NCBI GenBank assembly: GCA_001051155.2
Contig: JYIP02000003.1
Location: 1 to 64,000, forward strand
Direction: 5' to 3'
From: Chrysoporthe austroafricana
Lineage: Eukaryota > Ascomycota > Sordariomycetes > Diaporthales > Cryphonectriaceae
Length of the DNA: 64,000 nt
Under the pieces are notes generated by a model. The model was not told the origin of the DNA, made no database searches, and saw nothing but the letters and a program-made list of their open reading frames with translations. Below, piece after piece: positions 28,290-59,072 of this stretch. The stretch's first letter is position 1. Each line of letters begins with the position of its first letter. Position numbers and translations under genes: made by a program.

Positions 28290-29718
28290 ATGGCCAAGAC
28301 CATTGATGTTGTCAACCACGAGCTCCGGCCGCTGGGTCAGTTTCGTCATGTCTCCCCCCATAGCCCACCCCGATTGATGTTGTCTAGGACTTCTCGAAAA
28401 ATACTCATCCACACGGAGCCATTTGGGTATTTACCTCAATGTTTGCATCACAGCGACTTTCAAGCATCAAAACACCGAGGATCCAAGGCTGGCGATCTAC
28501 AAAGCCCTTGACACCTTGGTGCTGCGGCACCCGGTTCTGTCAGCAGTGCCAGTGGATATTGAAAGCGAACACCCTCGATTCGTCCGGCTTCCTGCCATTG
28601 ATCTTACCAAGACTGTGAAGATCAGTAGCTTTGGCAAGGCAGAGGAATTCGACCTAGACTCATTGCTCGAGGAGCAACACAATCGACCATTCCTGCATGG
28701 AACGAACGAGCTGATTCCCTTCTGGAGAATTGTCGTGTTCGAGGCTGCGTCGGAGTTTACACTGATCTTCTGTTTCCATCACTCTATCGCAGATACGAAG
28801 AGCGCACTGGTGTTTCTCGAAGATCTTGAAACAGCGCTTTCCGACCCGACGCGGGTTGTTTCCGGTCCAGACTCGGCCACTGCAGAATTCGTTGTCCGCA
28901 GGTTGTCTAGAGAGCCCCTACCGCCGACGATCGAATCCTGTATCGAGCTGCCAGTTTCGGCTACCTTTCGTACGCAGCAGGAACAGAATGTTGAGCCGGG
29001 TGTTGAGACCTGGTCTGGCCAGCCACAGTCTCTACCAGTGAGAACCCACTTTTCTTCTTTCTATCTGCCACAAGCCACCTCAGATGCGCTCTTGCGGATT
29101 TCCAAAGTGCACGGCGCCTCTGTCACCGCGTCAATCATGTCGATCCTCGCCATGGCCTTTTACGATAATCTCCCAGAAGAATACACGTCGCTTCAAGGTG
29201 ACTGCGCTATCTCAATGAGACGCTTCTTGACGCCGCAAGTCACCGAGCGAGACATAGGCTGCTGGGTCGGTTCGTTCAGCGAGACCTACCAGCGTGCAGA
29301 TTCCTCTCCGACAATGTTTTGGGCCAATGCGCGGCGCACCAAAGATACAATCGATAGAGTCATGAAGGATAAGGGCAAAGATATGGGTGTTGGCTACCTG
29401 AAACATGTACCAAACATGTCTGCGTGGTTCCTCAAGAAGATGGGAAGGAAGAGGGCGCCTGCATGGGAGCTCAGCAATGTCGGAACTCTGAGGAAACGGG
29501 ATCACAGCCGCTCTAGAGACTACGAGATCGAGAGCTTGTTGTTTAGCCAGAGCGCCAGTGCGTGCGCTGGCGCCATCAAGGTCAGTGTTGCGTCAGGAAG
29601 GGATGGTAGGCTCAGCTTCGGCTTCACGTGGCAGGATGGCATTGTCGAGAATACCCTCGCGAAAGACGTTATGTGGAGCTTCAAGACGTTGGTTCTTAGC
29701 ATTGTAAATGGAGATTAA
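28290..29718 (+). CDS. Alcohol acetyltransferase-like (AATase / condensation fold)
   Basis: Two exons, 28290-28335 and 28388-29718, joined across a 52-bp intron (gtcagt..tctag), give 458 residues. Splicing restores the N-terminal block LRPLG then LLEKYSS, typical of fungal alcohol acetyltransferase-like proteins; without it the frame opens only at a non-ATG codon. The catalytic HHxxxD motif is HHSIAD at about residues 146-151. The family transfers acyl groups from CoA to alcohols, or acts on peptides and polyketides in secondary metabolism; the substrate cannot be told here. It is tail-to-tail with the aminotransferase remnant, 174 bp away. It appears intact. Confidence 0.85.
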
Positions 29719-29892
29719 CTACCCACTAAGAGAATATTTCTTCACTTAACAAGTACCGATGCATCGGGTTTGGGACCCGTTATGATGCTTTTCCCCGTTT
29801 GTCCAATTCAAAACATTTTGAGTCATGGGCCTCTGACTATCCGTGATAAGAATAGAAAGGTCAAGTTTTTATTCTGTTTGCTATATCCCACT

Positions 29893-31100
29893 CTAAGCCG
29901 TAGAGTAGAGGCCCTTGAGCACTTTCTCTAGCGTGGCTAGCAGTCCAGGAATCAGATCCCGGGTGAAGATCAGCATTGGCCGGAGACGAACTGTCTCCTT
30001 GCCACAAGTGCCGACATTGATGCCTAGCTTCTTCATTTCCCGCACAAGAGCTGCCGTATCTACCGTGTCAAATGCGAGGTATGTACCACTGCCCTTCCCG
30101 CGCAGACTGGCAATGTGTCGCGGGTATTTAGCGGCCAGTTCCTCGAGTCCGGCATAAAGTGCTTCACAGACCTTTGCGCACTGCTCAACTAGCCCGCTCG
30201 CCAGAATCTCGTCGATCATGGTATTGGAGATGACTACGCATGTCGGGTCGCCCATCCAGGTATTGAACTGGCGATAGGCCTTGTCGGGCCGGAGCTGCTC
30301 GTCACCGAAGAAGTGCCCCGTAGTCTGGGCCTTCTTCGAGAATGTAATCATATCTGCGGGCTCCTGGAGATTCCAGTGCTCATGAGCCCAGAACTTGCCC
30401 GTCGCACCGAATCCTGTCACTCGTCAGACTTTTGGCTGCCGTATACTTTCTTGGTGATGCAAACCTATCTGTACTTCATCTATAATGAGAGCCACGTTTC
30501 TCTCTTTCGTAAGGCGTCATAGATCCTGGAAGAATGTAGGAGATGCGTAGTTATCGCCACCCTTACTCTGAATGGACTCGACAATAACGGCCGCTACCGG
30601 GCAGTGCCTATTTGGTCGTAAGCCATTGGATCATTGAGTCCGGGCCACTTTATGCGTACCAGGTGTCAATCAGGTTCTTAACTTCTTACAAGCACTTCGC
30701 TTCCTCCCCCCCGTTCTCGTTCTTGTGCAGGTCGAGGGGATACTTGAGGGCTGGGAACGAAGCCTGCGGCCATTTGAAGGCCGGGATGTCAAGCTTGTGC
30801 ACGGCCTTAGACCTCGTTATTGATAGACTTCCGAAGCCTCGGCTATGGAAAGAGTTGCGAAAGCTCAGAATAGCAAGCTCGAGAGATCCTGGGGCGACAT
30901 TGTTCAGGCACGACTCTACCTCCTCGGTCTTCCACTCGACGCCCTCTCCTCGCTTCTGGCGTTGATAGCGCATGAACACGGCCTTGTACGCAAGGGTGTC
31001 AATATAGTATCTCGTTACCGTTTTCAGCACTTATAACAAAGACCGAACATCTCGAAGCTCCAACAGGCTTGTAAAAGATTTTAGACTAGGCTGCAACGGC
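29893..31100 (-). pseudogene. 4-aminobutyrate aminotransferase pseudogene
   Basis: Class III PLP aminotransferase of the fungal GABA transaminase type. The C-terminal 175 codons (30413-29893) are open, with GATGKFWAHEHW at the start. Upstream exons are readable: 31030-30660 with NNVAPGSLELAILSFRNSFH and LDIPAFKWPQ, then 30607-30465 with AAVIVESIQSKGGDNY and ALIIDEVQ. Two introns keep good borders (30659-30608 and 30464-30414). Two nonsense codons break it: TAA at 30688-30686, where homologs have a charged residue, and TGA at 30519-30517. The PLP-binding lysine region lies in the C-terminal part and looks retained (FSKKAQ). Sequence upstream of about 31030 is too decayed to reconstruct a start. 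It would have degraded GABA in the mitochondrion. Confidence 0.85.
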
Positions 31101-31667
31101 CTATCAAGGCCCACCAAGCCCTTAATGCAAGTTATAGTCTGGCCGCCAACTTAAACTCTAGAATCACTGCAGTCAGTATGCTAGAAAGGAGTATATTGGA
31201 TGCAAGGAGCTGGACTTTGTTTAAGATAAAGCATTCCCATGAGAGGCGCGGAGAAAGTAGCGTGGAAACCCGCTTAGATAATATGATTAGATCCGTAGGG
31301 CAAAGTGCAGGGTGGGTTACTCTATCATCCTCTAAACCTTATAATGTAGTCATTATGGATAGTATGTGTAATGAGCAGCGCAATAGCACAAGTACCTAGT
31401 ACGCGATAGGTTTTTGCTAAGCAAGGGCAGTATTAAGTATAATCTACCGTATACGGAAATATAGCAATGGAGGTAATTAGAAACGATGCAATATGTACTA
31501 TCCGTATTGAATATTAATTAAACTGATTATCGAGGTGAATAGTTACAGTGGTCGTCGCTGTCTCTCATGTTCGAATCGCTGGAGCCAAGTTCAGGAAAGT
31601 CCTACTGTTATTGCGATCGTACACTGCGGTGATATACCCCCCAAACTAGTGCATTATAACAATCACC
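31101..31667. other. Intergenic, includes decayed N-terminus of the aminotransferase
   Basis: The minus strand near 31100 still hints at the LI.RPL block of GABA transaminases. Farther right, no conserved frame is seen. Confidence 0.4.
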
Positions 31668-32408
31668 CTACCACGGGATAGTCTCAAGCCTATTAGACAT
31701 TGTCGCAGTCTCTCCATCTAGTCCCAACGTAGCCAGGCGGCAGATATTGATTGCCCCGTTCGCAGGGCTGTCAGAGCCTCCGTAGTCAGTGAATCGTGTT
31801 GAACAGTGCCCCGGGCAGCCCAAGTTGATCTTCCAACTCGGGTCCTGCGAGTACTGTATTGCTAGGTTCGTGGCCAACATGTTCAAGGCGGTCTTGCTTG
31901 CCGCATAGACTCTGTAAGGGAGGACAAATGCGTTCGAGGGTTTGAACTTCCACGCGATGCTGCCGAGTTCTGAGGTGACGAAGACGATACGCTTTATTTT
32001 CTCCGACTTTTCTAGCAGTGGTATAAGCGAGTCCGTAAGCACTGAAGTGCCGAAGACATTCGTGTTGAACACTTCCTCCCACTCGCGTCGAGGCCAAGGG
32101 CCACGAGGGGTGGTCCCCCCAATGCCCGCATTGTTGATCAGCACATCGAGGTAGCCGTACTTTTCATTGATATAATTGACAGCAGCCGTGATTGATTCGT
32201 CCGAGGTAAGGTCGAGCATCAGTGGCTCAACAGAAGCGCCTTGCTGTTCGACAAGTTGTTTGGCAGCCTCTTCAATGGCTGCTTTTCTCCGCCCAGCCGT
32301 TAGAATATGATAGTCCTTGTGCTCGACTGCCAGCTTCTTGACGACTTCGAAGCCGATGCCTTGGTTGGCACCGGTGACTAGAACGAGAGTGGGCTTGGAA
32401 GATGCCAT
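31668..32408 (-). CDS. Short-chain dehydrogenase/reductase
   Basis: Single-exon, 246-residue SDR. The ATG at 32408 was chosen because the Rossmann motif TGANQGIG follows at residues 12-19; the frame extends upstream without homology. NNAG is at 92-95, the catalytic Ser is in TSELGS (about 146), and YAASK (Tyr168, Lys172) completes the active site. The C-terminal block ETATMSNRLETIPW resembles the ends of carbonyl-reductase-like SDRs. It probably reduces a carbonyl with NADPH in the cytosol; the substrate is unknown. It is divergent from the SnoaL-like gene, with 605 bp between starts. It appears intact. Confidence 0.88.
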   Translation of the reverse strand: MASSKPTLVLVTGANQGIGFEVVKKLAVEHKDYHILTAGRRKAAIEEAAKQLVEQQGASVEPLMLDLTSDESITAAVNYINEKYGYLDVLINNAGIGGTTPRGPWPRREWEEVFNTNVFGTSVLTDSLIPLLEKSEKIKRIVFVTSELGSIAWKFKPSNAFVLPYRVYAASKTALNMLATNLAIQYSQDPSWKINLGCPGHCSTRFTDYGGSDSPANGAINICRLATLGLDGETATMSNRLETIPW

Positions 32409-33013
32409 GATATACGTATTCCGATTTTTTTTTAAATGCTTGATACCTTTCACACCTTTAGGTTCATCGTGCATTTTATCTACCTGCACATGTCTTTTAT
32501 AAATCACATCACTAACTCGGCTTCACAGCACACGGCGGAGATAACCAGTCATGTTAGATGCCGAGCTTTAGGGGCTCGCCCAGCAGCTCTAATCCCCGAA
32601 ACCGAAGAAGGAAAAATGAGGAGGAATCGTCGCATCCTGTCTACGGAAGCGCCAATGTCGGGAATTTACATGAGCCGTTCGGGTTGTCGAGTTCATCCGT
32701 CAGTCCTACCTGTGCGTGGGTCAACCCAGTCCCGGTTTTGTTTCATAAAGGGGTGAAGGCAAATGGGCCCACCCCAGCTGATGTCCCCACACATTAGACT
32801 TTTGTGTTTGAATCGCTGCCCTACTAAGAGCATTGCTTCTCTCGACAACTAGCGGCGTGCTGGTAAACGCGAGGCCGAAACTGGCCGACCGCCCCATGAC
32901 TAGCTCTCAGCCTCTCTTATCTATCTTCACAGTTCCAACTGCCGGTAACATACCTCACCAGTTTACTTTTCTGGAAGACTGACAGACCCAACCATTGAAT
33001 TACATCCGGCACA
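32409..33013. promoter_or_regulatory. Divergent intergenic region, SDR / SnoaL-like
   Basis: 605 bp between two outward-facing start codons, long enough to hold both promoters. No binding site was identified with confidence. Confidence 0.45.
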
Positions 33014-33652
33014 ATGGATCCCGCCCTCACCACACACTTGGAGGCTAGCTATCTCCTGCTCCGCGAGCGTTACTACCGGGACACGCTACAATGGTCGCGG
33101 CTGCGCGATGCATGGCATCCAGACGCTAAGCAGACATCGATCAAAATCAGCTGGTTTAGCGGTGATGTCGACACCTTTGTAACGCGGTCCATGGACATGG
33201 TGTCGCGGGGTACGCAGTCAAGCCACGCACTGACGCCTATCGAGACCCACTTTCGGCGACCCGGCAAGGGTATTGACCCCGGGCCAGTTGGCAACAAGGC
33301 GGTGCTGGAGGCCGTGGGGAGCGTTTTATTTCGCGTCAAGGTGCAAGGGGGCGAGTACGACGTCGTGTCATGGGCTCGATTCTACCTGGGGCTGAGAAAA
33401 GTGCCGGAGCTGGGCTGGAGATTTGTGTCATTCGAGTCGATCTATGATCGGGACTCAATCATACCGACTTGCCCAGGGCAGGAGCCGTTGGTCGTGAATG
33501 TGGAAGGGAAGAGAGAGAGCTACAAGTACCTCACTTGGGTTTTGGATTTGCATGGATTTTCGACTCCCGATACTTTGCCTGGAACGGATAATCCAGCGAG
33601 TGTGAGAGATGTTATGGAGAGGCAGTGGAGCTGGCTAGAAGCAGATGATTGA
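33014..33652 (+). CDS. SnoaL-like (NTF2 fold) protein
   Basis: Single exon, 212 residues. The N-terminal helices lead to RLRDAWHPDAKQTSIKISWF, the typical start of fungal SnoaL_4-type domains, and the body alternates strands and helices to about residue 175. Such proteins are small cyclases, isomerases or dehydratases of secondary metabolism, or have no known activity. It is divergent with the SDR, which fits co-regulation. The 5' side has clean non-repetitive sequence. It appears intact, with no signal peptide. Confidence 0.82.
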   Translation: MDPALTTHLEASYLLLRERYYRDTLQWSRLRDAWHPDAKQTSIKISWFSGDVDTFVTRSMDMVSRGTQSSHALTPIETHFRRPGKGIDPGPVGNKAVLEAVGSVLFRVKVQGGEYDVVSWARFYLGLRKVPELGWRFVSFESIYDRDSIIPTCPGQEPLVVNVEGKRESYKYLTWVLDLHGFSTPDTLPGTDNPASVRDVMERQWSWLEADD

Positions 33653-34214
33653 AATTCTATGATTATTGCTTACCTGGACTGTATTCGTATAGAGCGTTAA
33701 ATGGAAAGAGATTTCTAGAGTAATAAAGCCAAAAACAAGCAAAGCCTCTCAGCTTTACGGGGGGTTGCACAAGTCCTCCTCTTGCTAAAAGGCACTTTCC
33801 TACACATAGCTGGCCCTACTATAGGTTTCGCTAAAGCGCTTGACTAAACTCTTGCATTTTACGCAGAGAATAGACAATAGTAAGAATTGTAGCGAGGAAT
33901 CCTGCAAGTGCAAATCTCTGAGCCAGCATATCTACACCCCTCTTGTGCGAGTGCTATTCAACAAGGCAGCTTTTGCTACGACTCCTAGCCTAAGAGTCAG
34001 CACTCCTTGAGCTAAGGCCTTGGTGATGGCGAGAGATAAGCAGACGTTTTTGTCCCAGGCGAAGAAAGGGCAGGAAGAGCGGAAGGCGCAAAGCGTTCAC
34101 GTGGACTCTTTGCGCTTAAATCCGAACGGATATGTTTATACGTCAAGTTGTCCAAGTAAAGCAGAGTCAGAGATCGGGCTTAGAAGAAGACTAGGACACG
34201 CTCAGCTGGCCCGA
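33653..34214. other. Intergenic, no gene seen
   Basis: Short random frames only. It lies between the 3' ends of two convergent genes. Confidence 0.5.
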
Positions 34215-35193
34215 TCAGACGAAACTAGCAACCCAAACATCCATGGCCCTAACTCCCTTCCGACCCCCCTGCACACCGTCCAAGCTCGCCTCACACGCAT
34301 CTCGTGACGCAAGAACTACCGCCCGTTCCCTCTCATCACTCACTTGCTCCTCTACTTCCCTTTCGAAAGATGAAGAAAGACAAGCAGAGACTTCCCATTG
34401 TCCGTCCAACAACCCCTCCCCACCTTGCACGCGGGTCTCACTCTCCAGCTGCCACCCGGCAGCCAGGGCCAGCTCGGTAAGCCGCTTTGGCCCCAGCACC
34501 GTGCGGACGTTCGAGGCGCTCTTGGGTTTACGGCACTCCAGCGCTGCCTGGGTGAGCGCAGCTAATACATGAGGCTGGGCAGAGGGGTGCGTCGCTACTA
34601 ACGACCATTCAGCAAGGAGGAGACGCTTGCTGTGCTGCTTGAGAGTACGGAAGGTGGAAAGTATGAGCGAGGGTGAGGCAAAGTACCATAGGCAGTGGGC
34701 GAGCACTGTTGCGTCGAAGGCCTTACTTTCGCTGGCGGGCAGCGAGGAGGTGGAAGAAGGGGAAGAGAGGGAGGAGAGGTAGTCCAGGGGCGGTTGTTGG
34801 ACCCAAGTAATCCGCCTACCCAGCGGGCCTTGCGAGATGTGACCCTGTGCTTGGCCGAGAGTATATGGGGCACCTGGGGGAACAATCAGTCGGCTGCTTT
34901 CCGCTCGCACCGCCAGGACAGGCAGCAGGGTAAGAAAAGCGAAAAGACTCACCATAATCCAATTCCGCCGGATCGACCGCCACCACCTTCCCCTGCTCGC
35001 CCACAGCACAGGCAAGGACAGTCGTGCAGTCCCCCTGCCCGCATCCTAGTTCCAGCACCTTGGAGCCAGTGGGAAGGTTCCAGTGCTGCAGGAGCACCAG
35101 TCGGTGAAGGGTTTGGGAGTGCTGGATGTTGAAATGGGTAGGATCGTGTAGGGAGACACGGGCGAGAGAGGCGGCATCGAGTTGAATGGACAT
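34215..35193 (-). CDS. Class I SAM-dependent methyltransferase
   Basis: Two exons, 35193-34953 and 34873-34215, with a 79-bp intron (gtgagt..ccccag), give 299 residues. Motif I is VLELGCGQGD at about residues 46-55, followed by VAVDPAELDYG, where the intron falls, and GAPYTLGQAQGHI after it. The middle third contains the post-motif region (FDATVLAHCLWYF) and a regulatory-looking C-terminal half. It resembles fungal small-molecule methyltransferases; the acceptor is unknown. Exon joining keeps the frame and is supported by the conserved sequence across the junction. A 145-codon frame on the opposite strand is a shadow. Confidence 0.85.
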
Positions 35194-35678
35194 GTTTTGC
35201 TCGATGGGTGTCGGGCATAAGACAGTTGAGTGGGTTTTGCGTAGCTAGGTGATGGAACTTGGAACTATAGCCTTTATTGTAGCTACTGAAAAGCTGCGGA
35301 TGGGGACATCTTATAGTGTTAGAGGGTCGCCTAGGAGCACCCCCACCGCAAAATTAGTATGGGGGCAAGCTACTGCCCGACTACCCCGCCTTTTAGATTG
35401 ACCCCAAGGGGTCGGCCCTGAATTGCCCTCTTTCGACAGAATTCTTAGAATCAGACATCTCCTTACCTAAAAGATTGGCCCTGCCCACCAGTGTTCAACA
35501 TATAGGCCCAATTCCATGTGCGGGAGAACCCTCAGCAACATAGGCTGCCGGGTTAGGTGAGTGTACTGGGGCTACAGGTGACTATTGATTCGAAGAGTCA
35601 CCAGACATAGCTGGAGACAGGGTCCATTCTACGTAAATAATAACGCTGATTGAAAGCAATATAGCCATCCTTCCCCGC
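35194..35678. other. Intergenic, no gene seen
   Basis: 485 bp between the start of the methyltransferase gene and the 3' end of the membrane protein gene. It likely holds the methyltransferase promoter. Confidence 0.5.
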
Positions 35679-36794: not shown

Positions 36795-38515
36795 ATACTC
36801 TTATATAAGGGTATGAATTTAATACTTGGAATTATTTATATTCTATACCGCTATTTAATAATTAATACAAAATAAATATTAATAAAATTTTCTTTATAAT
36901 TATTATTATTTTATAATATTTTTTTTAATATTAATTATATTTTAATAATATTTATAAATAATTAATATAAATAATAAAAATATTAATTAAAATTTTTTAA
37001 ATATATATATAAATTATTTAATTTTATAAATATATATATATAAATAATTATATATATAATAAATATAAATAATAAGCTTTATAATAATATATTTATATAA
37101 TATAAAAAGCTTAAATAATTAAAAAAAAAAATTAATAAATAAATAATATTAGAATTATTATATTTAAATAATTAAAAGAAAAAAAATTAATAAATAAATA
37201 ATATTAAAATTTTATTTTTTAATATTTTAATAATTATATAAATTATAAAATTAAAATTATTNTTATAATTATTATAAATTATATTTATATATAAAAAATA
37301 TAAATATATATATATAAATATATATATAAATAATATAAAAAGCTTAAATAATTAAAAGAAAGAAAATTAATAAATAAATAATATTAAAACTTTATTTTTT
37401 AATATTTTAATAATTATATAAATAAAAATTATTATTTTTAAATAAATAAATTAAAAAAATATTTATATTAAAATTAAATATTATTTAATTATTTATAAAT
37501 ATTTATATCGAATATTAATATTTAATTATAATAAAAAATATTTAAAAAAAATAAAAATTTTAAATATATATATTTTATTTTTTATTTATATAAAAAAATA
37601 AATATTAATATAAAATAAATATTAATATAAAATAAATATAAATATATATAAATTAAAAATAAATATTTAATTTAAATAATTATATAAATATAAATAAAAA
37701 TAAAATAAAAAAAAATTAATTTTTATTATATTAATTATTATATAATTATTATTTTTTTTTTATTTTTTTTAAATATTTTTTATTATAATTAAATATTAAT
37801 ATTCGATATAAATATTTATAAATAATTAAATAATATTTAATTTTAATATAAATATTTTTTTAATTTATTTATTTAAAAATAATAAAAAAATAATTATTAT
37901 AATAAGCTTTATATTATATAAACTTATTATTTATTATTTATATAATTATTAAAATATTAAAAAATAAAGTTTTAATATTATTTATTTATTAATTTTTAAA
38001 GAAAATTAATAAATTCGAAAAATATAATAAATATATATATAAATATATATATATAAATATAAAAAATATATATTTATATTAAATATTATTAATATTATAT
38101 TTATTAAAATTAAAATATTAAATATATTAATAATTTTATAATTTTTTATTTTAAAATTATAATAAATAAATAATTAAAAAAAAGAAAATTAATAAATTTC
38201 TTTTTATATTATTTATATATATATTTATATATTATTATAAAGCTTATTATTTATATATTTATTATATTAATTATTTATAAATTAATATATTAAAAAATAT
38301 TTAAATTATTAATAATATAATTTTTAATTTAATTAATAATAATAATTTAAAATTATTTTTAAAATATAATTTATATTATTTATTATATTATTAAATATAA
38401 TAATAAAAAAAAATTTATAAATTTATTATTTAAAAATATTTATAGCATTTATTAATGCAACTTATAAATATTAAATAAAAGGTTAAATATTTCGGCTTAA
38501 TACTCTAGTAATAAG
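36795..38515. repeat. A/T island A (relic element)
   Basis: About 1.7 kb of nearly pure A and T, bounded sharply by normal-GC sequence. Its ends match those of the island at 41290-41755: the left end begins with ctcttatataa, and the right end has tttattaatgcaa, then gttaaatatttcgg. The two islands are therefore copies of one repeat, probably a transposon relic driven to saturation by RIP. An undetermined base (n) lies at 37262. No coding content. Confidence 0.75.
37365..37995. repeat. Long inverted repeat within A/T island A
   Basis: The left arm (about 37365-37558) is the reverse complement of the right arm (about 37750-37995). The best block is over 100 bp without mismatch and includes the only GC-bearing point, tatcgaa at about 37508, matched by ttcgata at about 37802. 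The right arm carries an extra segment of about 50 bp near 37885-37935. The centre is near 37655. Confidence 0.85.
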
Positions 38516-38816: not shown

Positions 38817-39466
38817 ATGGCCTCCCTCCTCACCGCAATCACCTTCCTGCTTGCCCTCAGCATCAGCATCAACCTCACATCCGCCGCGCACGCCGGCTTC
38901 CACGTCCAGTTCCCATGGATGTCCCGCGGTCCAAACCCCAGGACCCGGCCAGAGATAGATCGGTACAACCCTTTCTGCCGTACGTTCCCGTCCGTCTCCG
39001 GTCCAGTAGCGTAGGCTGATATAGAGAAGGGGAGATAATTCACAACCCCCAACGATACTCCCGCCGCTCCCGCAGTTTCCTCTCGTTCTCCGGCCATCCC
39101 GGGGACCTTGTAACGGCCCTCTATACCCGGAATAGAGTGCCAAGGAAGAGAGACGACTTCCCCTATATCATCCTGCAGGATGTGCCCATCCAGCCTTCGG
39201 GGCAGCTGTGTGTAAACGTCACGATACCATTTCAGACCGAGGTCGACGAGATGGGAGTCATGTACTTCGAGGCGAGGGATCCGAGGACGGGGAATGTGGA
39301 ACACCATGTCAGTTGCTCCGACTTGCAAATAGTAGAGCTGATGCTGATGCAAAGGTAGTGCTCCGACGTCAAGATGGCTGACAAAGAGGCTCTTCCGGAG
39401 GAACATCCGGCTATGTGTGCGGCTGACAACGAGACGCTTATCCCGATGCCGGATGAGTACCTGTAG
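38817..39466 (+). CDS. Small secreted protein, possibly X325/BIM1-like (copper-binding)
   Basis: The ATG at 38817 starts a signal peptide (ASLLTAITFLLALSISINLT..AA) that would expose an N-terminal His (HAGFHVQFPW). Exon 1 ends near 38989; the intron to 39075 has a weak donor, and its exact start is uncertain. Exon 2 is 39076-39307. A clear 51-bp intron, 39308-39358 (gtcagt..gtag), removes a stop. Exon 3, 39359-39466, starts CSDVKMAD. Paired Cys residues (PFC, QLCV, HHC, AMC), an N-terminal His and the C-terminal C(S)DV block fit the X325/BIM1-like family of LPMO-fold copper proteins, but identity looks low. Mature size is about 130 residues. It lies next to the repeat precursor. Confidence 0.5.
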
Positions 39467-39611
39467 ATACAGGCTGGAGAGCTATCATGTCCTGCAAATG
39501 TCATGTGTGGTTCGCTTCTAAACGTGCAACTTTGCGCCCCTCCCTCATCTTAACGTACAATGGCTCAACGCAACGGCACTCTATTAGCTTGAAATGAAGT
39601 AGATATCCAGC

Positions 39612-40015
39612 TTGCTAGCTCCTTTATTCGTTTCTATCAAATCCAGAGTAATCATCGTAATGCTACTGCTATCTATAGCGTGTCCGACTGAACGATCTGC
39701 CGCCGACGCGCTGGTGTACCTGCCCAACGGGATTGCTAGCCCAACTGAAGAAGCCTACCTAGCTAGAAGACGACGTAATCATCAGATATACTCCATCCTA
39801 GATCAACGTAGATTTATCTCGGATCGCTAACCTCGAGAAAGCTAATGAGGCAGCGTCAGAGCGAAAGCAGCGTAATAAAAAGCAAATTGCTCGTGAAGAG
39901 CGTCGAGGAAGAGAGCGATCCGGTCTTAGTCGCCAGGCTCTAGCGCGCTGTACAAGGTGTAGAGAGGCTGGACATAACACAAGTACGTGCAGAAAAAATA
40001 CCCAAGATACTGCTT
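39612..40015 (+). pseudogene. Tail of a DDE transposase with zinc knuckle
   Basis: A plus-strand fragment, with one frame change near 39815, ends in a Lys/Arg/Glu-rich helix and then CTRCREAGHNTSTC (about 39948-39989), a C-x2-C-x4-H-x4-C knuckle. Fungal pogo/Tc1-type transposases commonly end in this way. The catalytic domain and terminal repeats are missing. It lies between the small secreted protein and the repeat precursor, so it is a truncated relic, not part of the peptide system. Confidence 0.6.
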
Positions 40016-40219
40016 GATATACTCGTGTATATATATGTATACTGCTATGTAACGAACGTGGTGAAAAGAATACGCTCAAAGAGAGCGCAAAGTTGGTGGG
40101 TTGCGGCGCTCGCCTGTGGAATACGTTATAGACGTTTGAAAAGCTCGTTCCATACGAGACTTCAGTTATCCGCAGCGGAGCGGTAGACGTGCAGGTTCTC
40201 GTCATTGTCACTCCTGTAT

Positions 40220-40924
40220 TTATGCGATCTCATCCTCATCTACTCCGTAGGTGTGGCGCTTCTCGTGAGCGACCTCATCTTCATCCACTCCGTAGGTGTG
40301 GCGCTTCTCGTGAGCGACCTCATCTTCATCCACTCCGTAGGTATGGCGCTTTGCGATCTCATCTTCATCCACTCCGTAGGTGTGGCGCTTTGCGATCTCA
40401 TCTTCGGCCACTCCGTAGGTGTGGCGCTTTGCGATCTCGTCTTCGTCCACTCCGTAAGTGTGGCGCTTTGCGATCTCATCTGCATCCACTCCGTAGGTAT
40501 GGCGCTTTGTGATCTCGTCTTCATCCACTCCGTAAGTGTGGCGCTTTGCGATCTCATCTTCGGCCACTCCGTAGGTATGGCGCTTTGCGATCTCATCTTC
40601 GGCCACTCCGTAGGTATGGCGCTTTGCGATCTCGTCTTCATCCACTCCATAAGTGTGGCGCTTTGCGATCTCATCTGCATCCACTCCGTAGGTATGGCGC
40701 TTTGCGATCTCGTCTTCATCCACTCCGTAGGTGTGGCGCTTTGCGATCTCGTCTTCATCCACTCCGTAGGTGTGCCGTTTCCCCACCGTGTTAGAGCGAT
40801 AGACATGGCTGATCGACTCATCAGCGCGGCGAGCCAAATCAGCAGCGGGAACCGCTGCGGACTGGACAGGGAGGATGTTCAGGCCGAGGCTGGCGAGGCT
40901 GAGCAGAGTGATGGTGAATTGCAT
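40220..40924 (-). CDS. Kex2-processed repeat precursor, dikaritin-type RiPP candidate
   Basis: Single exon, 234 residues, starting at ATG 40924. Residues 1-22 form a signal peptide (MQFTITLLSLASLGLNILPV..), followed by a short propeptide to residue 48. Then 14 tandem units follow, each beginning Lys-Arg and mostly reading HTYGVDEDEIA; the gene stops directly after the last one. HTYGV is identical in all 14, while the tail varies (VAEDEIA, VDADEIA, DEIT; units 12 and 13 end DEDEVAHE). Lys-Arg is the Kex2 cleavage site of the Golgi, so the product would be 14 secreted short peptides. UstA-like precursors of ustiloxins and phomopsins have this architecture, and an UstYa homolog and tyrosinase lie within 4 kb. 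The core has no Cys. A pheromone precursor or cell-surface repellent is the alternative. Confidence 0.85.
   Translation of the reverse strand: MQFTITLLSLASLGLNILPVQSAAVPAADLARRADESISHVYRSNTVGKRHTYGVDEDEIAKRHTYGVDEDEIAKRHTYGVDADEIAKRHTYGVDEDEIAKRHTYGVAEDEIAKRHTYGVAEDEIAKRHTYGVDEDEITKRHTYGVDADEIAKRHTYGVDEDEIAKRHTYGVAEDEIAKRHTYGVDEDEIAKRHTYGVDEDEVAHEKRHTYGVDEDEVAHEKRHTYGVDEDEIA
40223..40780 (-). repeat. 39/45-bp coding tandem repeat (14 units)
   Basis: Twelve units of 39 bp and two of 45 bp make up the precursor array. The DNA is near-identical between units, with differences mostly in tail codons. Despite being repetitive, the array has normal GC and no stop, unlike the neighbouring repeats. 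Confidence 0.95.
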
Positions 40925-41289
40925 TGTTACAGTTTGGCGATGATTGGATGCTTTCGTTAGACGAGGCGAAGAGGTGGTTCGTTGATCAGATGTTGTTAAT
41001 GCTCGTCGTGCTCTTGGGAATTTATGCGTTTCGAGATCTGAAGGAGAACTGCGTACAGAAGGGATATCCGTAAGACGATCAATGTCTGCTATCCACTTGG
41101 TGGCTGGAACTTCAGCTCCACCAATGTAGTTACGATTCTAACCAACAAGGAGAGTTAGGGGGTCGTCTGGTCAACTATCGCGACTAAAAAGGGAGGACTA
41201 GCGTATGCTTCAGCTACAGTGTATAATGCGATCCGCTAGATAGTTGGCGGTGTGGAAGTGAGGTCGGCATTATTCGCTAATGCTAAGAA
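40925..41289. promoter_or_regulatory. Upstream region of the precursor gene
   Basis: 365 bp of normal-GC sequence between the precursor start and A/T island B. It presumably holds the promoter, but I see no motif I would name. Confidence 0.4.
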
Positions 41290-41755
41290 CTTACTCTTAT
41301 ATAAAAGTATATATTTAACTTTTAAAAATATTTATATTTATACCGCAATTTACCGATTAATATAAAATAAATAATAATATCTTTTTTTAATTATTTATAT
41401 TTTATTATAATTTAATTAATATTAATTAATTATTTATATTTAAATTTTTAATATATAATAAAATATTTTTTATTTAAACTTTATAAATTTTTTATAATAT
41501 ATTATTAATAATTAAAATAATATAAAATTAAATAAATATAAATAAAATTAATATTATTATATTAAATAAAAATAAAATAAAAATTTAATTAATAATATTA
41601 TTTTAAAATTATTATAAAATAAAAATTTATTATTATTATAATAATTAAAAAAGAAAATTTATAAATTTATTATTTGAAAAAAAATAAAGTATTTATTAAT
41701 GCAATTTATAAATACTTAACAGGGGTTTAAATATTTCGGCCTGATATCCCAGTAA
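41290..41755. repeat. A/T island B (relic element)
   Basis: About 465 bp of nearly pure A/T with the same two ends as island A: ctcttatataa on the left; tttattaatgcaa and aatatttcgg on the right. It is shorter, so either internally deleted or a different size class. Islands A and B face the same way and bracket the secreted protein, transposase tail and precursor. Confidence 0.72.
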
Positions 41756-42587
41756 ACCAGAGTTAGCCCGAGCTTCTTTCGATCCTTTTAAATTCCTATC
41801 AGCTTTTAGCGGGGCCAGGCGGAAGCCGGCAAGGTTCCAGTGATGAGCCAGCCCCGCGCGTGGCACGTCTACGGTTAGACTGCCAAGTCTTTGGAAAAGC
41901 TTATTTTGACAACATTTACTTAGCGAAGCTTATTTTGACAACATTTACTTGGCAGCAAGTGAGACACCGTACAATGACACAATACGTAATAGATTGATGC
42001 CACTCTATATCATGCCATGCTGTGCTGATCGGTAATATGGGCATATGGGTTCAGAAAGGGGCTGAATTGACACGCCTTAACACCCTTACCAAGGTGTTAT
42101 CTGCTTCTGTCCTGCAGTCATAAATCCTTTAGATCCTCTCGAGGGCATCTATCCACTTCCGAAGGAGCTTCGCATATTACTTCTTATCTTGTTTCCACTT
42201 ATCTCTTTGGGCCTGACCGTAAAAGGGGCGCGATAACCTGTCACGCGAGCCTTAATTATTAATAGCCTCAAGGGTGATCCCGGTGTACTTTTGTTCTGAG
42301 TAGGATAGTATTTGTGGAGCCACAAACTGCCTTGTGTGTGCTTCTCTGCTTACTGGTGCTCTCCACGTCATCGACGAAATCCTTCGAATAAGGGCTCTGG
42401 TGAATAGAGCATCTCGAAAGCTGCGTCTCCTCCTACCCCTCTCTTCGGGACCATCGCGACTTGCCCACCCAAGTGAGAGCGGATACAGCCATAGCTGTGC
42501 TAAACACTATTAGCCCGCTCCTGATGCTGAACAAGATCCTCGTCTCCCTCTGCTATCCTCAACGCACCACCCTACCAGCACATCAAG
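41756..42587. other. Intergenic, upstream of the UstYa-like gene
   Basis: About 830 bp of normal-GC, non-coding-looking sequence. It contains a perfect 25-bp direct repeat (listed separately) and a pyrimidine-rich stretch before the start codon. Confidence 0.5.
41897..41950. promoter_or_regulatory. 25-bp direct repeat upstream of the UstYa-like gene
   Basis: The 25 bp aagcttattttgacaacatt(tactt) occur at 41897-41921 and again at 41926-41950, a 29-bp period with no mismatch, about 640 bp before the UstYa start. Repeats spaced near three helical turns suit a bound regulator, but a simple duplication is equally possible. Confidence 0.4.
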
Positions 42588-43260
42588 ATGTTCCCCAAGT
42601 CCCCGACAGCCCAATTATGCGGCCCCTCCCTCGGCCTACTCGCAGCGCTGAGCGTATGCCTCGTCCTGAATCTGGGCGCCCTCCTCTTCTCCCTCAGCAT
42701 CTTAACGCGCGGAACGCGGGGATACAGTGCGCCATATCCCAGCTTCTCCTCACACTCATGACTAACGCACAGTAGCCTACCTCACCGGCGACCGACCTCG
42801 CGAGCTCCCCCTAAAGGTTCGCACCATCCAAGCCGCCTTCCACGACGACCCCTCCCACTACGGGATGGAAGGCATCACGGCCACGGCTGAATGGAACGCG
42901 ATCCGCCCTCCCGGCAATGGCTTCGTTTTTCTAGGGGAGGAGCACTTCGCATTTGGTGTGTCGATGTGGCACCAGATGCACTGCCTTAACCACATCCGCG
43001 CGGTGCTTGTCAACGGGGACGACGGGTCGGACCATACGGCGCACTGCTTCCATTACCTACGGCAGGGCATTCTCTGCGCCGCCGACACAACCCTAGAGCC
43101 GGGCGGCACGAGCATGAAATTGGCTAATGGGGATAAAGTCGCTGCGGGCGGAGAAACTGTGCATACCTGCCGGGACTGGAGACAGGTGCATGATTGGATG
43201 GAGAGCCAGCATGAGGAGTGGACACCGGACATGTATGAGAGGATTAAGGAGTCTAGTTAA
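42588..43260 (+). CDS. UstYa-family (DUF3328) oxidase
   Basis: Two exons, 42588-42726 and 42773-43260, with a 46-bp intron (gtgcgc..cacag, branch ctaac), give 208 residues. A membrane anchor spans about 13-36 (SLGLLAALSVCLVLNLGALL). The two hallmark HxxHC motifs are HQMHC at 113-117 and HTAHC at 134-138, the latter followed by YLRQ and the conserved CxAD(T)TLEP. UstYa-type proteins catalyse oxidative cyclisation of ribosomal peptides (ustiloxin, phomopsin, asperipin) in the secretory pathway, often in pairs; only one copy is in this window. It is tail-to-tail with the tyrosinase, 230 bp apart. It appears intact. Confidence 0.9.
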
Positions 43261-43490
43261 TATAGTGGGTATAGGATGGGAATATAAAGATGATGCGTCG
43301 TATGAGAACTGGACAACTATTCTTTGGGTTTTGTGTAGGAGAGTACGTAGTTATGTGCGCAGAACCAGTTGAGCAGGGCACCTCGCTTCTCGTTTCTCTT
43401 TACCAAGAACGAGAAGCCAGGTAAGTGGCCGTGGGGGAGCAAGGTGGGGCGGAAGTCCAACTCGAGTGAATGTGACCCGTCTAATACCCG

Positions 43491-44770
43491 TCACTCGTCG
43501 TCCGTATACCGATAACATAACGGCCAACCCTCCGTATCAAAGACGCTCCTCGGTGTCACGGGCACACTCTGAACGTCGAAAGGCATCTGATGGTCTGCGT
43601 GCGCGTCAAGGTCGTAGTGTGCGTTGGTCATATTGTGCGGGGATAGGGGCATGCCGGAGAAGGCGGCGAAGTTGGATGGGTGGTGGCGCTGCCACTGTAC
43701 AACTCATGTCAGCCACGTTGTACTGCAGCAAACATATAAGCGGGGCAACTAGCATGGGGTTCGGGGGCGCACCTCACTCCACAACCGGTCAAGTTGCGCA
43801 TGATGCAGCCAAAAGAGCGGGTCATTAGGCGTGAAGCTAGATGCCATGCCCTGGCAATCCTCCTCCAGCAAGACCTTCGGGCAGTCTCCCGCCAAGTCGC
43901 CCCCAACGAAATTGTGTACGTGGTTGTGCATTAGTGTCATTGCGTGCTGGAACCTGAAAAAGTCGCCCGTAGTTTGCTCGGTCGAGTTGCGCACAAAGTC
44001 CGGGCCGAGGGTACGGTTTTGAGGCAGCTCATGGGGGAACCAGCCGGTTATGAGCGTCAGGTTCCTCCGCAGCGGGTGGGGGATCGGCCAGGCAAGCTCG
44101 AAATTATCAGTGGACGGGGCAAAAGCGCCGGTGGTGACGGTACAGTCCGCTTCGGGGGAGGAATCGCAGTCCCCCGTTCCACCCAGCCCGTACTCTGGTG
44201 AGTCCTCGAACACTGGCGAGCTGAACAGGTCTGCGTGATCGCGCGACCAGTCCCAGTATGGTGTTGGCCCGCTGTACCCGCAAGTGTTGCGGAGGGAGGT
44301 GTCGAATAGGTAGGTGAACCAGCGGTCTGCGCTTTGTAAGTATGTGCTTGGGGGGGGGAAGGAGGGACGGAACGAACGCCACGGCAAAAAGTAGGCATTC
44401 CTATGCGCGCTGTGCTCCACTAATGCGTGCGAGTAAGAGAAGTCGTCGTACAGGCTCCTCTTCCCCTCAAGTACCGTCTGGTCCTTCGTCAAGGATAGCC
44501 GTTCGTGTTGTATGCTTGCCAAGCACTACTCGGCATTAGCAACGTACGCGTTACATACGGGGAGGAAGAAGGGCGCACCTTAACAGCTCTCACCCACTCG
44601 GCTTTCTCGCTATGCGTTAACGTCCGCCATTCTTTGCGTGTCAGCAGCTTGCTGCACTTTTGTGGTTGTCCCTGGTCCCATTGCTGCGCATATGAGAGGT
44701 GAGCGCTGGGGAGGACGGCGAGGACGGCGAGTACGCAGAGGAATATAATCGAACGGCCCATGGCTATCAT
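43491..44770 (-). CDS. Secreted tyrosinase (UstQ-like)
   Basis: Four exons: 44770-44579, 44525-44378, 44326-43773 and 43694-43491 (introns of 53, 51 and 78 bp), giving 365 residues. The signal peptide is MIAMGRSIIFLCVLAVLAVL. Copper A: His97, His102 or His105, and His114, the last recreated by splicing (YFLPW then HRWF). Copper B: His247 and His251 in HNHVH, and His288/289 in FWLHHAQLDRLW. The CGYSGPTPYWDW block is typical of the family. The splice at 44377 uses gttcgt, an unusual donor, but no other choice restores WHR. In ustiloxin clusters a tyrosinase (UstQ) works on the precursor tyrosine; here the peptide has one Tyr per unit. The gene is divergent from the methyltransferase. Confidence 0.9.
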
Positions 44771-45244
44771 TTAGCTAGGAATCAAATAAAAGCAGGCACG
44801 GAGGAGAGGTTGCGATAGTCGCAATATGAAATGAAAGCCTAAATAGTCAGCTTACTGTGCATGATAGAAGAAGCCTGGCCAGCATGCTTGTGATCGGCCA
44901 TTACCATTGATGCGGAGCATGCCAGACTCCACCGCCTTCTAGATTGAGAATTACTATTCGCACCCTAACTTTTTGCTACCCGTACCCCAGGTGTAACAGG
45001 CTAGGCCTCTGATAGACGAGGCTGCGCCTCGTCCCAAAGCTGGTCCAAGCGTTGGTGTCTAACGATGCCCTTATCTCGGACAGCGGGGCAGCCATTGCGG
45101 CAGCTCCTTTTCTTCTTGAGGCCAAGAATGAAACGCACTGCGCTCGTGTTGCTTTCCCGCTCTTCCGCCCTCCTCCCCTTGTGCTACTAACAGCAAGAAC
45201 CAACCCTTCCCACCCACGTCCATCTTGAAGCCACAAGCACAACG
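44771..45244. promoter_or_regulatory. Shared divergent promoter, tyrosinase / methyltransferase
   Basis: 474 bp between two outward-facing starts, so the two genes are likely co-regulated. gcatgc occurs twice, near 44881 and 44918 (…agcatgc… / …gcatgcc…). No binding protein can be named; no regulator gene is seen nearby. Confidence 0.5.
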
Positions 45245-46712
45245 ATGCGCACCTCAACCTACCTCTCCCGCTTCCTCGCTCTCCTCCTCTGCATCGTCTT
45301 CCCCCTCTACCTCGCCGTCCGTGGCTCCGCCTCGTTGTCTGATATCGCACTTCTCCTCTCCTCCCTTTCCGAGCGCGCCGAAGCCCTGCACGTCGCGCTC
45401 ATATCCCCGCTTGCCGCCCCTCCCGCACCAATCTCCGAAGAAGCCTTCGAAGCTTCCGCCGAGCCCGCCAAACACGTGCGCGCACCCGAAGGCGGGAAAA
45501 GGAAAAGATACCCCTCCCTTCCCGATGGACTGGCGCACTGCATCAACTCCTTCGAGCAGTATCAGTTCCTCGCCGAGCAAGTTCTTCACCGGAAGCATGC
45601 GCGGTATTCCAAGCAGACGCCCGCGCAGAAGGCAATAAGCAACAAGCTCGGCTATACTGCACATTTCGAGAAAGCTAGGAAGGGGATCGAGGTGAACGCC
45701 CGGTTCTCGGAACAGATCGCGCAGATTGCGAGGGAGGATTATCACACCGGCCCGCGAGCGCTGGAGGACGATGAAGACGCGGAGTTCGGAGTTGTGGACC
45801 TGGCGTTTGGACATCTTTCGCGAGACTGGAGCACGCAGGGCGCAAAGGAGAGGCAGGCCGTGTTTCCGCCTGTTCTGGCTGGGCTTGAGCAACATTTTGG
45901 CGGGAACGGGAGAGGGAACAAGGTGCTTGTACCCGGAAGCGGTATGGGTAGGCTGGCAAGCGATATCGCTGATCTCGGTGCGTCCATCTTACATCGTTGA
46001 GTTGAAGCCGCGGTCTTACATCAGCGCAGGGTACGACGTCACGGCCAACGAGCTGGACTATGGCTCCATCTTGGCATACCACCTACTAACCAACCATACG
46101 AGCTCGCTGCACCAACACACTTTGCAGCCCTTCGTGACCAAATGGACGCATCAAGCCAACCCCTCCTCGCGCTACTCCGCCCTAACGGTGCCGGACCACT
46201 GGCCAAACAAGGCCGTCAAGCTCGTCGAGGGCGACTTCTTGGAGAAGTTCCCCCGGGACGGTGAGTTTGACGCCGTCGTCACGCTGTTCTTCATCGACAT
46301 GTCCGACAACGTGATTGACTTCCTAAGCAACATACATCGGCTGCTGAAGCCTGGTGGGTTGTGGATCAACCTTGGACGTACGTTACTGTCCTCCCTTACA
46401 TAAATACTGACATTTATACTTTTCTTGTAATCAGTTTGCCGAACTCGGGCTGACGTGTATACAGCGCTGAAATGGGGCACTTATACCTCTCTCCAGCTCT
46501 CTGCGGAAGAAGTGCTCCAGCTGGCAGATCTGCTCGGGTTCGATGTGGACCATACGTCAAGGAAGAACATCGATAGCCGGTATGCCGAGCAGCCGGAAAC
46601 GTTGCTGAAGTTCACTTATAGTAAGTGCTTGCCGGTTTCTTATAAGGAATAAAGACGGTTGCTAATAGGACGGGCAGTTACGCAGTTCTGGTCTGCAATA
46701 AAGAGGGTATAA
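45245..46712 (+). CDS. N2227-type (carnosine N-methyltransferase-like) methyltransferase
   Basis: Four exons: 45245-45977, 46030-46377, 46465-46620 and 46678-46712 (introns of 52, 87 and 57 bp), giving 423 residues. An N-terminal hydrophobic segment at residues 8-25 looks like a membrane anchor. The family blocks are INSFEQYQFLAEQV at about 99-112, motif I KVLVPGSGMGRLA, GYDVTANE (spanning intron 1), GDFLEKF, NLGPLKW (spanning intron 2) and the terminal FW.A.K end, recovered only by the third splice. This is the PF07942-like family, which N-methylates amines and peptides. A methyltransferase of unknown class occurs in ustiloxin and phomopsin clusters, so a tailoring role is plausible, but the canonical target is carnosine-like. 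It is divergent from the tyrosinase. Confidence 0.85.
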
Positions 46713-57818: not shown

Positions 57819-58567
57819 CGTTTATAACATTTTGATAACTCTTATTTAAGAACGGTTCAGTATATACCCCTTTAAGCAATACTAGAAATACGATAGCGCC
57901 CTAGACCTTATCTTTTTCCAGCAACCAAGCCTTTCAGAAAGGAAACCCGGTTATCTTTACTAATAAATAATTCCAAGAACAAAATATGGCCTTGTACTAA
58001 TAGCTTGAGGAAATTAAGAACGAAATTTTCCGCTTTAATGCCTTTTAACAAGCTAAAGCTTTCAAGCTTAATAAGCCCGGGCCTTACAAAAATACTTGCG
58101 AGGATTTTCAGGCTTTCTTAACTTAGCTTAAGGCTTACTTTAAGCATTATAGTACCCAGTTTAGGACTATTTACGATAAGATCGACTTTGCAAGAAATCG
58201 ATTCGAAAGAATAGCATTCCAATAATAGGAGCTTATTTTTCGCGATTACCTGGATAACGATAACGCATTCCGTTCCGAGAATACCAAATGCATTTTCCAG
58301 TACTATTCCAATTTCGAAAAGGCCCTTACCAAGACTTTCGGAAATCCGGACGAACGATATATTACAGTATGGCAGTTGGAAGCATTTCGGCAAACGGGAT
58401 TAGCGGCAGACTATACGGCCAAATTCAGACAAATTATTGCTTATTTCGATTACGAAAACGAGCCTTTTATAGACGTTTATTACGCAAGACTTAAGGAAGA
58501 AATTAAAGACGAACTCTATAAAGAAAACCGACCCGAAAAACTTAATAAGTTTATTAATAAGGCTATT
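57819..58567 (+). mobile_element. Gypsy element G4, resumed after G3 and cut by G5
   Basis: CGTTT plus ATAACA complete the 5' LTR of G4 (448 bp in total with 50065-50506), then the leader ttttgataactc and gag follow. The gag frame (57960-58567; open 58376 onward, with AADYTAKFRQIIAYFDYENE and EEIKDELYKENRPEKL) is cut at 58567 by the LTR of G5. The rest of G4 must lie beyond the window. Confidence 0.85.
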
Positions 58568-59072
58568 TGTTATGAACTAGCAAATGGTTCGAACCCTATA
58601 AACGAATCGAAAACAAGAAAGGACCAGATATGCCAAGAACTAACTACTATAATTATATAATCGGGGGTTAGGGTTAGTTTTACCAATAAGGATAAATAGC
58701 TATGGATATAAGTTATCCAGAAAAAAAGACAAGGTTGGATAGCTATGGATATAAGTTATCCAAAAGAAAAGATAAGGTTAGATAACTATGGATATAAGTT
58801 ATCCAGAAATATCCCCTAAAAAACATAATAACGGGAAAAGGATATAAGGATAAGGCATTCCCCCCCCCCGAATAAATAGACTATTAGAGAGTTCCCAGTT
58901 ATTAATTTAAATATCAATTAGACCTTATTATTAATAGCCGCATTGGCTTATGAATATTGCGATACTTAATAAACCTATCCTGAATCTCAAAGCTGTATTT
59001 AGTACCGCTCTTATTAGCATAAACCTTTTGACCCTATAATATATTTTAGGATCTGCTATAGCATTTATAATA
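58568..59072 (+). repeat. G5 5' LTR
   Basis: 505 bp, longer than the other LTRs because of an internal tandem repeat. It contains gggttagggttag near 58664, two telomere-like units. Confidence 0.78.
58698..58806. repeat. 43-bp tandem repeat with hairpin potential in G5 LTR
   Basis: Two full units and a half (58698-58740, 58741-58783, 58784-58806) of a(g/a)ctatggatataagttatcc plus a purine-rich tail. Each unit can pair an agata(g/a)ct-type arm with aagttatcc. Confidence 0.85.

Follow-up and report, generated by a model that had tools for sequence, protein, structure and literature searches.

What does a subtelomeric group of genes encoding a 14-repeat peptide precursor and two predicted copper oxidases make in the fungus Chrysoporthe austroafricana, and why does a small secreted protein resembling copper proteins stand beside it? 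The question arises from positions 38817-46712 of the window, the first 64,000 bases of contig JYIP02000003.1 (C16:1-64000), in a genome of 48.15 Mb and 22 contigs. Five genes on alternating strands occupy this interval, encoding, in order, an X325/BIM1-like protein (+), a Kex2-repeat precursor (-), an UstYa-family oxidase (+), a tyrosinase (-) and a CARME-family methyltransferase (+), all with complete frames after splicing. This gene content and a subtelomeric position had both been proposed in a first-pass annotation made from the letters alone, and both hold, the latter through a (CTAACC)16 telomere repeat at 1-98, the 5' end of the window. The locus is very probably a cluster for an UstYa-type ribosomally synthesised and post-translationally modified peptide (RiPP), and its dikaritin type is well supported by the predicted domains, a shared secretory targeting judged by eye, the rarity of CARME genes in the genome and the linkage of the outer genes in other fungi. 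This part of the earlier proposal stands, whereas the single cyclic product that it added is so far only inferred. On balance, we favour a reading in which the five genes would yield a tyrosine-modified, likely cross-linked and methylated dikaritin-type peptide, the BIM1-like protein likely handling copper.

The precursor (40220-40924, minus strand) is an intronless frame of 234 amino acids in which a hydrophobic N-terminal segment, read by eye as a signal peptide, is followed by a spacer and 14 HTYGV units, with KR directly preceding the core in 14 of 14 units, in agreement with the secreted 14-repeat Kex2 precursor first described. HTYGV is invariant as protein across the units, its ten departures from the majority codon being silent without exception and 34 of the 45 single-base changes possible in the core codons being residue-changing; at the next five positions after the core, seven of 14 departures are silent and seven change the residue. 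Fisher's test of core against following positions gives an optimistic p of 0.019, the units of a tandem array being statistically dependent. A protein sequence fixed despite variable codons fits HTYGV as the product-forming part, with the acidic DEDEIA as a probable spacer. A genome search found no second copy of the precursor. In the literature covered, HTYGV was present only in two papers, unrelated by title, and passages of PMC6339444 and PMC7329392 contain no HTYGV core.

The UstYa-family (DUF3328) oxidase, of 207 amino acids, is encoded 1.7 kb from the precursor on the plus strand (42588-43260; exons 42588-42726 and 42776-43260, an acceptor three bases upstream being equally possible for the second). 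It matches PF11807 with 76 bits (cut-off 25), has a hydrophobic segment at its N-terminal end and carries the two HxxHC motifs previously claimed, HQMHC at 112 and HTAHC at 133. The window holds only this one UstYa match; genome-wide there are 50 exon-level matches from 54 candidates, so that the mere presence of an UstYa gene is nothing unusual. Several such matches are grouped within a few kb at C16:257172-261774 and, on another contig, at C4:575530-581985, and these groups are perhaps further RiPP-type clusters. The tyrosinase (43491-44761, minus strand; 362 amino acids; introns 44578-44526, 44377-44327 and 43772-43695) scores 124 bits against PF00264, covering 2-213 of 214 positions; the genome shows 18 exon-level tyrosinase matches. 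Its copper sites are complete, as had been stated, the first only after splicing: FLPWHRWF becomes whole once the 51-base intron 44377-44327 is taken out. MHNHVHNFVGG and LHHAQLDRLW, read by eye, represent the second.

The methyltransferase (45245-46712, plus strand; exons 45245-45977, 46030-46377, 46465-46620 and 46678-46712) has 423 amino acids, and its first-pass assignment to the N2227 type is confirmed by 191 bits against PF07942 (CARME, formerly N2227), over the curated cut-off. By eye and hydropathy an N-terminal membrane anchor is predicted, and the closest fold is that of the histidine methyltransferase CARNMT1. GPLKWG stands where canonical enzymes carry GPLLxHFEN; among 62 full-length relatives out of 120 listed matches, 56 share GP[LF]K[WY], and the other six have an insertion, a gap or other sequence there. 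The three CARME matches in the genome, from three candidates, correspond to two exons of the cluster gene and to a canonical copy on contig C19, so that just two CARME genes were found in 48 Mb, the cluster gene among them. That a gene otherwise present singly recurs next to UstYa and tyrosinase genes argues for its recruitment to the cluster. Beyond the fungi, a search of genome contigs gave only nine distant bacterial methyltransferase relatives (L021-L029), of which those from metagenome-assembled genomes of Gemmatimonadota (L021-L027) share about 30% identity with the fungal CARME subfamily; the nine were left out of the comparisons. Viral contigs yielded no relative.

The small secreted protein beside the precursor (38817-39466, plus strand; exons 38817-38979, 39030-39307 and 39359-39466; 182 amino acids) had been noticed in the first-pass annotation, which missed its likely X325/BIM1-like identity. 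A first gene model with intron 39011-39075 was rejected since homologues read FC-G/REI-HNPQ-Y, placing the intron at 38980-39029; the protein-database and PDB sequence searches were made with this early model, the latter returning nothing at E < 0.7. The best fold match is the copper protein LaX325, with modest scores; candidate copper ligands H25, which signal cleavage would have to leave as the N-terminal residue, H77 and D80, with an offset of two residues relative to LaX325, are all kept in 36 of 47 sequences, and several relatives are annotated as PF20238 in precomputed annotation. The protein is probably X325/BIM1-like and a likely copper protein. NCBIfam gave no match for three proteins of the locus.

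The two outer genes provide the evidence from other fungi. The methyltransferase search matched 178 proteins, and the comparisons rest on the best 120 of these; the closest among the matches listed are from Penicillium samsonianum (92%), Clathrospora elynae (91%) and Aspergillus alliaceus (89%). The early BIM1-like model gave 82 matches from 145 candidates, the closest at 86-87% (P. expansum, P. antarcticum). Among the matches listed, 33 named genus-level taxa have the methyltransferase and 32 the BIM1-like protein, with 23 in common. A shared contig was called where the contigs listed for the two genes were equal in span; 20 species were compared first and 13 agree, so that both genes lie on one contig in 13 of the 24 shared species among the matches listed. 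The contigs differ in the remaining seven of the 20 (Westerdykella, A. sclerotiicarbonarius, Melanomma, Coniothyrium, A. alliaceus, Dacryopinax and Stygiomarasmius) and in four further shared species whose contigs come from multi-assembly clusters or different isolates (P. cf. griseofulvum, Parastagonospora nodorum, Colletotrichum abscissum and Plenodomus lingam). Both outer proteins are also found on two metagenome contigs, of 154,608 and 265,027 bases. In five of the eight assemblies for which both locus tags are given, the tags are close: four genes apart for N7453_011589/011593 of P. expansum, Nn.00g110930/110890 (tags counted in steps of ten), GQ607_015762/015766 and CABS01_10119/10115, and five for HGRIS_002042/002047 of a basidiomycete. 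The span from methyltransferase to BIM1-like gene in the window is likewise four steps, the same as in four other assemblies, and the precursor, UstYa and tyrosinase genes, sitting between the linked outer genes, are bracketed by them. Of the synteny in relatives that the first-pass annotation had named as support, linkage of the two outer genes is found. Because these two genes keep company in this way, the five genes most likely form a conserved cluster.

The spread of the methyltransferase was approached through a tree of 49 rows, comprising the window gene and 48 of the 120 listed matches, whose backbone is unresolved. Of three groups submitted to one-clade tests, Basidiomycota was not rejected as a single clade (p 0.257), whereas Dothideomycetes (p 0.027) and Sordariomycetes (p 0.0026) were, all p values being uncorrected. 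Together with matches in two classes at 91-92% identity, these rejections make movement of the gene between ascomycete classes likely, though not proven.

How the proteins might act together can be outlined by analogy. Directed by its signal peptide, the precursor would enter the secretory pathway, and Kex2 would cut it there after each KR to give HTYGVDEDEIA-type peptides with an N-terminal histidine. The tyrosinase would hydroxylate Tyr3, and the UstYa protein, of a reportedly copper-dependent family, would bond the tyrosine ring to a neighbouring side chain, conceivably that of Val5, the analogue of Ile in YAIG/YVIP, or alternatively that of His1. The anchored methyltransferase may place a methyl group on His1, at the imidazole or the alpha-amine; trimming would remove the acidic DEDEIA tail. 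The choice of His1 is tentative and would sooner be doubted than assumed: in a subfamily without LLxHFEN, methylation of the leading histidine is only a best guess. Copper bound by the BIM1-like protein would be handed on to both oxidases, which would share its compartment. Tyrosinases are copper enzymes, and PMC12186524 cites a 2025 report by Chiang, Ohashi and Tang whose title describes a DUF3328 enzyme as copper-dependent. According to passages of the respective sources, Bim1 binds and releases copper and is not redox-active (PMC7529816), and a part in copper transport is suggested for X325 (PMC10952591). It is from these copper roles that the BIM1-like protein is read as a copper supply; it is probably a working member of the cluster, and the chances that copper supply is its role are about even. 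Precedent for tyrosine modification by a tyrosinase and cross-linking by UstYa is provided by ustiloxin, as described in passages of PMC12048977 and PMC7329392.

Several observations weigh against this interpretation. An AT-rich block at 41292-41755, between precursor and UstYa gene, splits the cluster. In three of the eight assemblies (A. alliaceus, Coniothyrium and Stygiomarasmius), the outer genes are on separate contigs and their tags are far apart. The corrected BIM1-like protein scores 23.4 bits (E 9e-5) against PF20238, below the cut-off of 27, and LLxHFEN, a motif that human CARNMT1 shares with the canonical copy in this genome, is absent from the cluster methyltransferase. Finally, no precursor relative was found among 7995 scored protein-database candidates, a search that a word pre-filter or missing annotation may have limited; in a phmmer control at the same database size, artificial precursor copies were still recognised when up to 50% of the leader was altered and the repeats were kept, when they carried other cores, and when a leader altered by 30% was combined with unrelated repeats, so that scoring was not the bottleneck.

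An alternative explanation of the linked pair, itself unlikely, is that the methyltransferase serves the BIM1-like protein by methylating the N-terminal histidine of this copper protein. Both are predicted, by eye and hydropathy, to be secretory-pathway proteins and they co-occur widely; the methyltransferase has the fold of a histidine methyltransferase, and a seven-transmembrane enzyme, NHMT, methylates the N-terminal histidine of lytic polysaccharide monooxygenases in the endoplasmic reticulum (PMC10349129). The loss of the HFEN motif speaks against such a function, as does Artomyces, where two methyltransferases and the BIM1-like gene share one contig although Arg takes the place of the His in its BIM1-like protein. 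It appears equally improbable that the cluster is a canonical dikaritin cluster with the BIM1-like gene as a mere neighbour, in which the UstYa protein, the tyrosinase and an alpha-N- or O-methyltransferase would act on HTYGV as in ustiloxin and phomopsin, with copper from the general supply. Precursor, UstYa, tyrosinase and methyltransferase do form a known set, as passages of PMC12048977 indicate, and the BIM1-like gene shares a separate GC island with the precursor, but it is also linked, in several fungi, to the methyltransferase at the other end. Bolder still, and more improbable again, would be a Dikarya-wide copper-peptide system, spread in part laterally from one fungal class to another, in which the cluster's own histidine-brace protein loads or receives a ribosomal copper-binding peptide; the N-terminal, perhaps methylated histidine and a 3,4-dihydroxyphenylalanine (DOPA) or cross-linked tyrosine would be the ligands of what would amount to a fungal ribosomal chalkophore.

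The AT-rich blocks bear on the remaining alternative. A second block lies left of the BIM1-like gene at 36796-38511 (GC content of 1.9% at 37-38 kb), its edges homologous to those of 41292-41755: the left edges are 79% alike over 47 bases and the right edges 81% over 115 bases, the right edge occurring nowhere but at these two places in the genome in a search that skips very common words. Most simply, the blocks would be two copies of a mutated repeat inserted into an older contiguous cluster. Within the left block, a perfect inverted repeat spans 37429-37885, with arms of 129 bases at 37429-37557 and 37757-37885. On the remaining alternative, repeat activity in a rearranged subtelomere would have joined chance neighbours, with UstYa, tyrosinase and methyltransferase forming one unit and the BIM1-like gene and precursor (perhaps for a signalling or linear peptide) the other. 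This would accommodate the two related blocks enclosing exactly the latter unit, the absence of precursor relatives among the scored candidates and the separation of the outer genes in three assemblies, but is very improbable because the outer genes of both supposed units are linked in relatives, lying four or five genes apart in five other assemblies.

In the wider window, a stretch of normal GC content at about 25-50 kb, within which the five genes lie, is flanked by AT-rich sequence on either side. A neighbouring island at 28378-35244 contains alcohol acetyltransferase/condensation-like, class III aminotransferase, short-chain dehydrogenase/reductase, SnoaL-like and class I methyltransferase frames, and is perhaps a second biosynthetic cluster; a 43-base tandem array comes after a retrotransposon gag-like frame (58229-58809).

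The usual view of UstYa-class clusters is of a precursor with oxidases and tailoring enzymes. Here two predicted copper oxidases are joined by a likely copper protein, and linkage of the framing methyltransferase and copper-protein genes extends over ascomycetes and one basidiomycete or more. The literature covered contains no pairing of UstYa/DUF3328 with BIM1-like, X325, DUF6595 or PF20238 and none of UstYa with N2227, and among the matches listed ustiloxin or dikaritin was nowhere paired with CARME names. A copper-protein member of an UstYa-class RiPP cluster is thus apparently unreported, provisionally so because preprints, most subscription papers and all supplements fell outside that literature. 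If the favoured reading is true, it would explain copper delivery to RiPP oxidases in the secretory pathway and provide a new marker gene pair for genome mining of clusters without an obvious precursor, and the histidine-leading core would make the methylation question directly testable.

The original definition of dikaritin clusters included tyrosinase and methyltransferase genes, several DUF3328 genes and a peptidase or transporter, the last two being relaxed later; tyrosinase and methyltransferase are present here, with one DUF3328 gene instead of several. The cluster resembles those of ustiloxin and phomopsin (UstA/UstYa/UstYb/UstQ/UstM) in its signal-peptide Kex2-repeat precursor, UstYa-family oxidase, tyrosinase and methyltransferase. 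It differs in a core with tyrosine third (HTYGV) and not first (YAIG/YVIG/YVIP), and in having one UstYa gene plus a BIM1-like protein. A further difference is that a scan of 15 frames outside the five cluster proteins, which did not extend to short exons, turned up no peptidase, transporter, P450 or flavoenzyme. The asperipin-2a core is presumably unrelated to HTYGV. Passages of PMC7329392 and PMC12048977 show the asperipin-2a cluster to share a Kex2-repeat precursor and a single UstYa-family gene with the present one, which has the tyrosinase, CARME-family methyltransferase and BIM1-like protein in addition. Clan R1 clusters of Parmeliaceae lichens, in passages of PMC12048977, likewise combine UstY, tyrosinase and methyltransferase, but have two UstY genes, an O-methyltransferase and an FGE-sulfatase, with no repeat precursor found there. 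From CARNMT1, the carnosine N-methyltransferase (PF07942), the cluster enzyme is distinguished by its predicted N-terminal membrane anchor and by GPLKWG in place of LLxHFEN, which the genome's own canonical copy keeps. With the X325/BIM1 histidine-brace proteins (PF20238), the small secreted protein shares LaX325 as closest fold and candidate His, His and Asp ligands, and it is set apart by a sub-threshold Pfam score, the absence of a glycosylphosphatidylinositol-type tail visible by eye, a conserved C-terminal HPAMCA-NETLIPMPDEYL block and its RiPP-type genomic setting.

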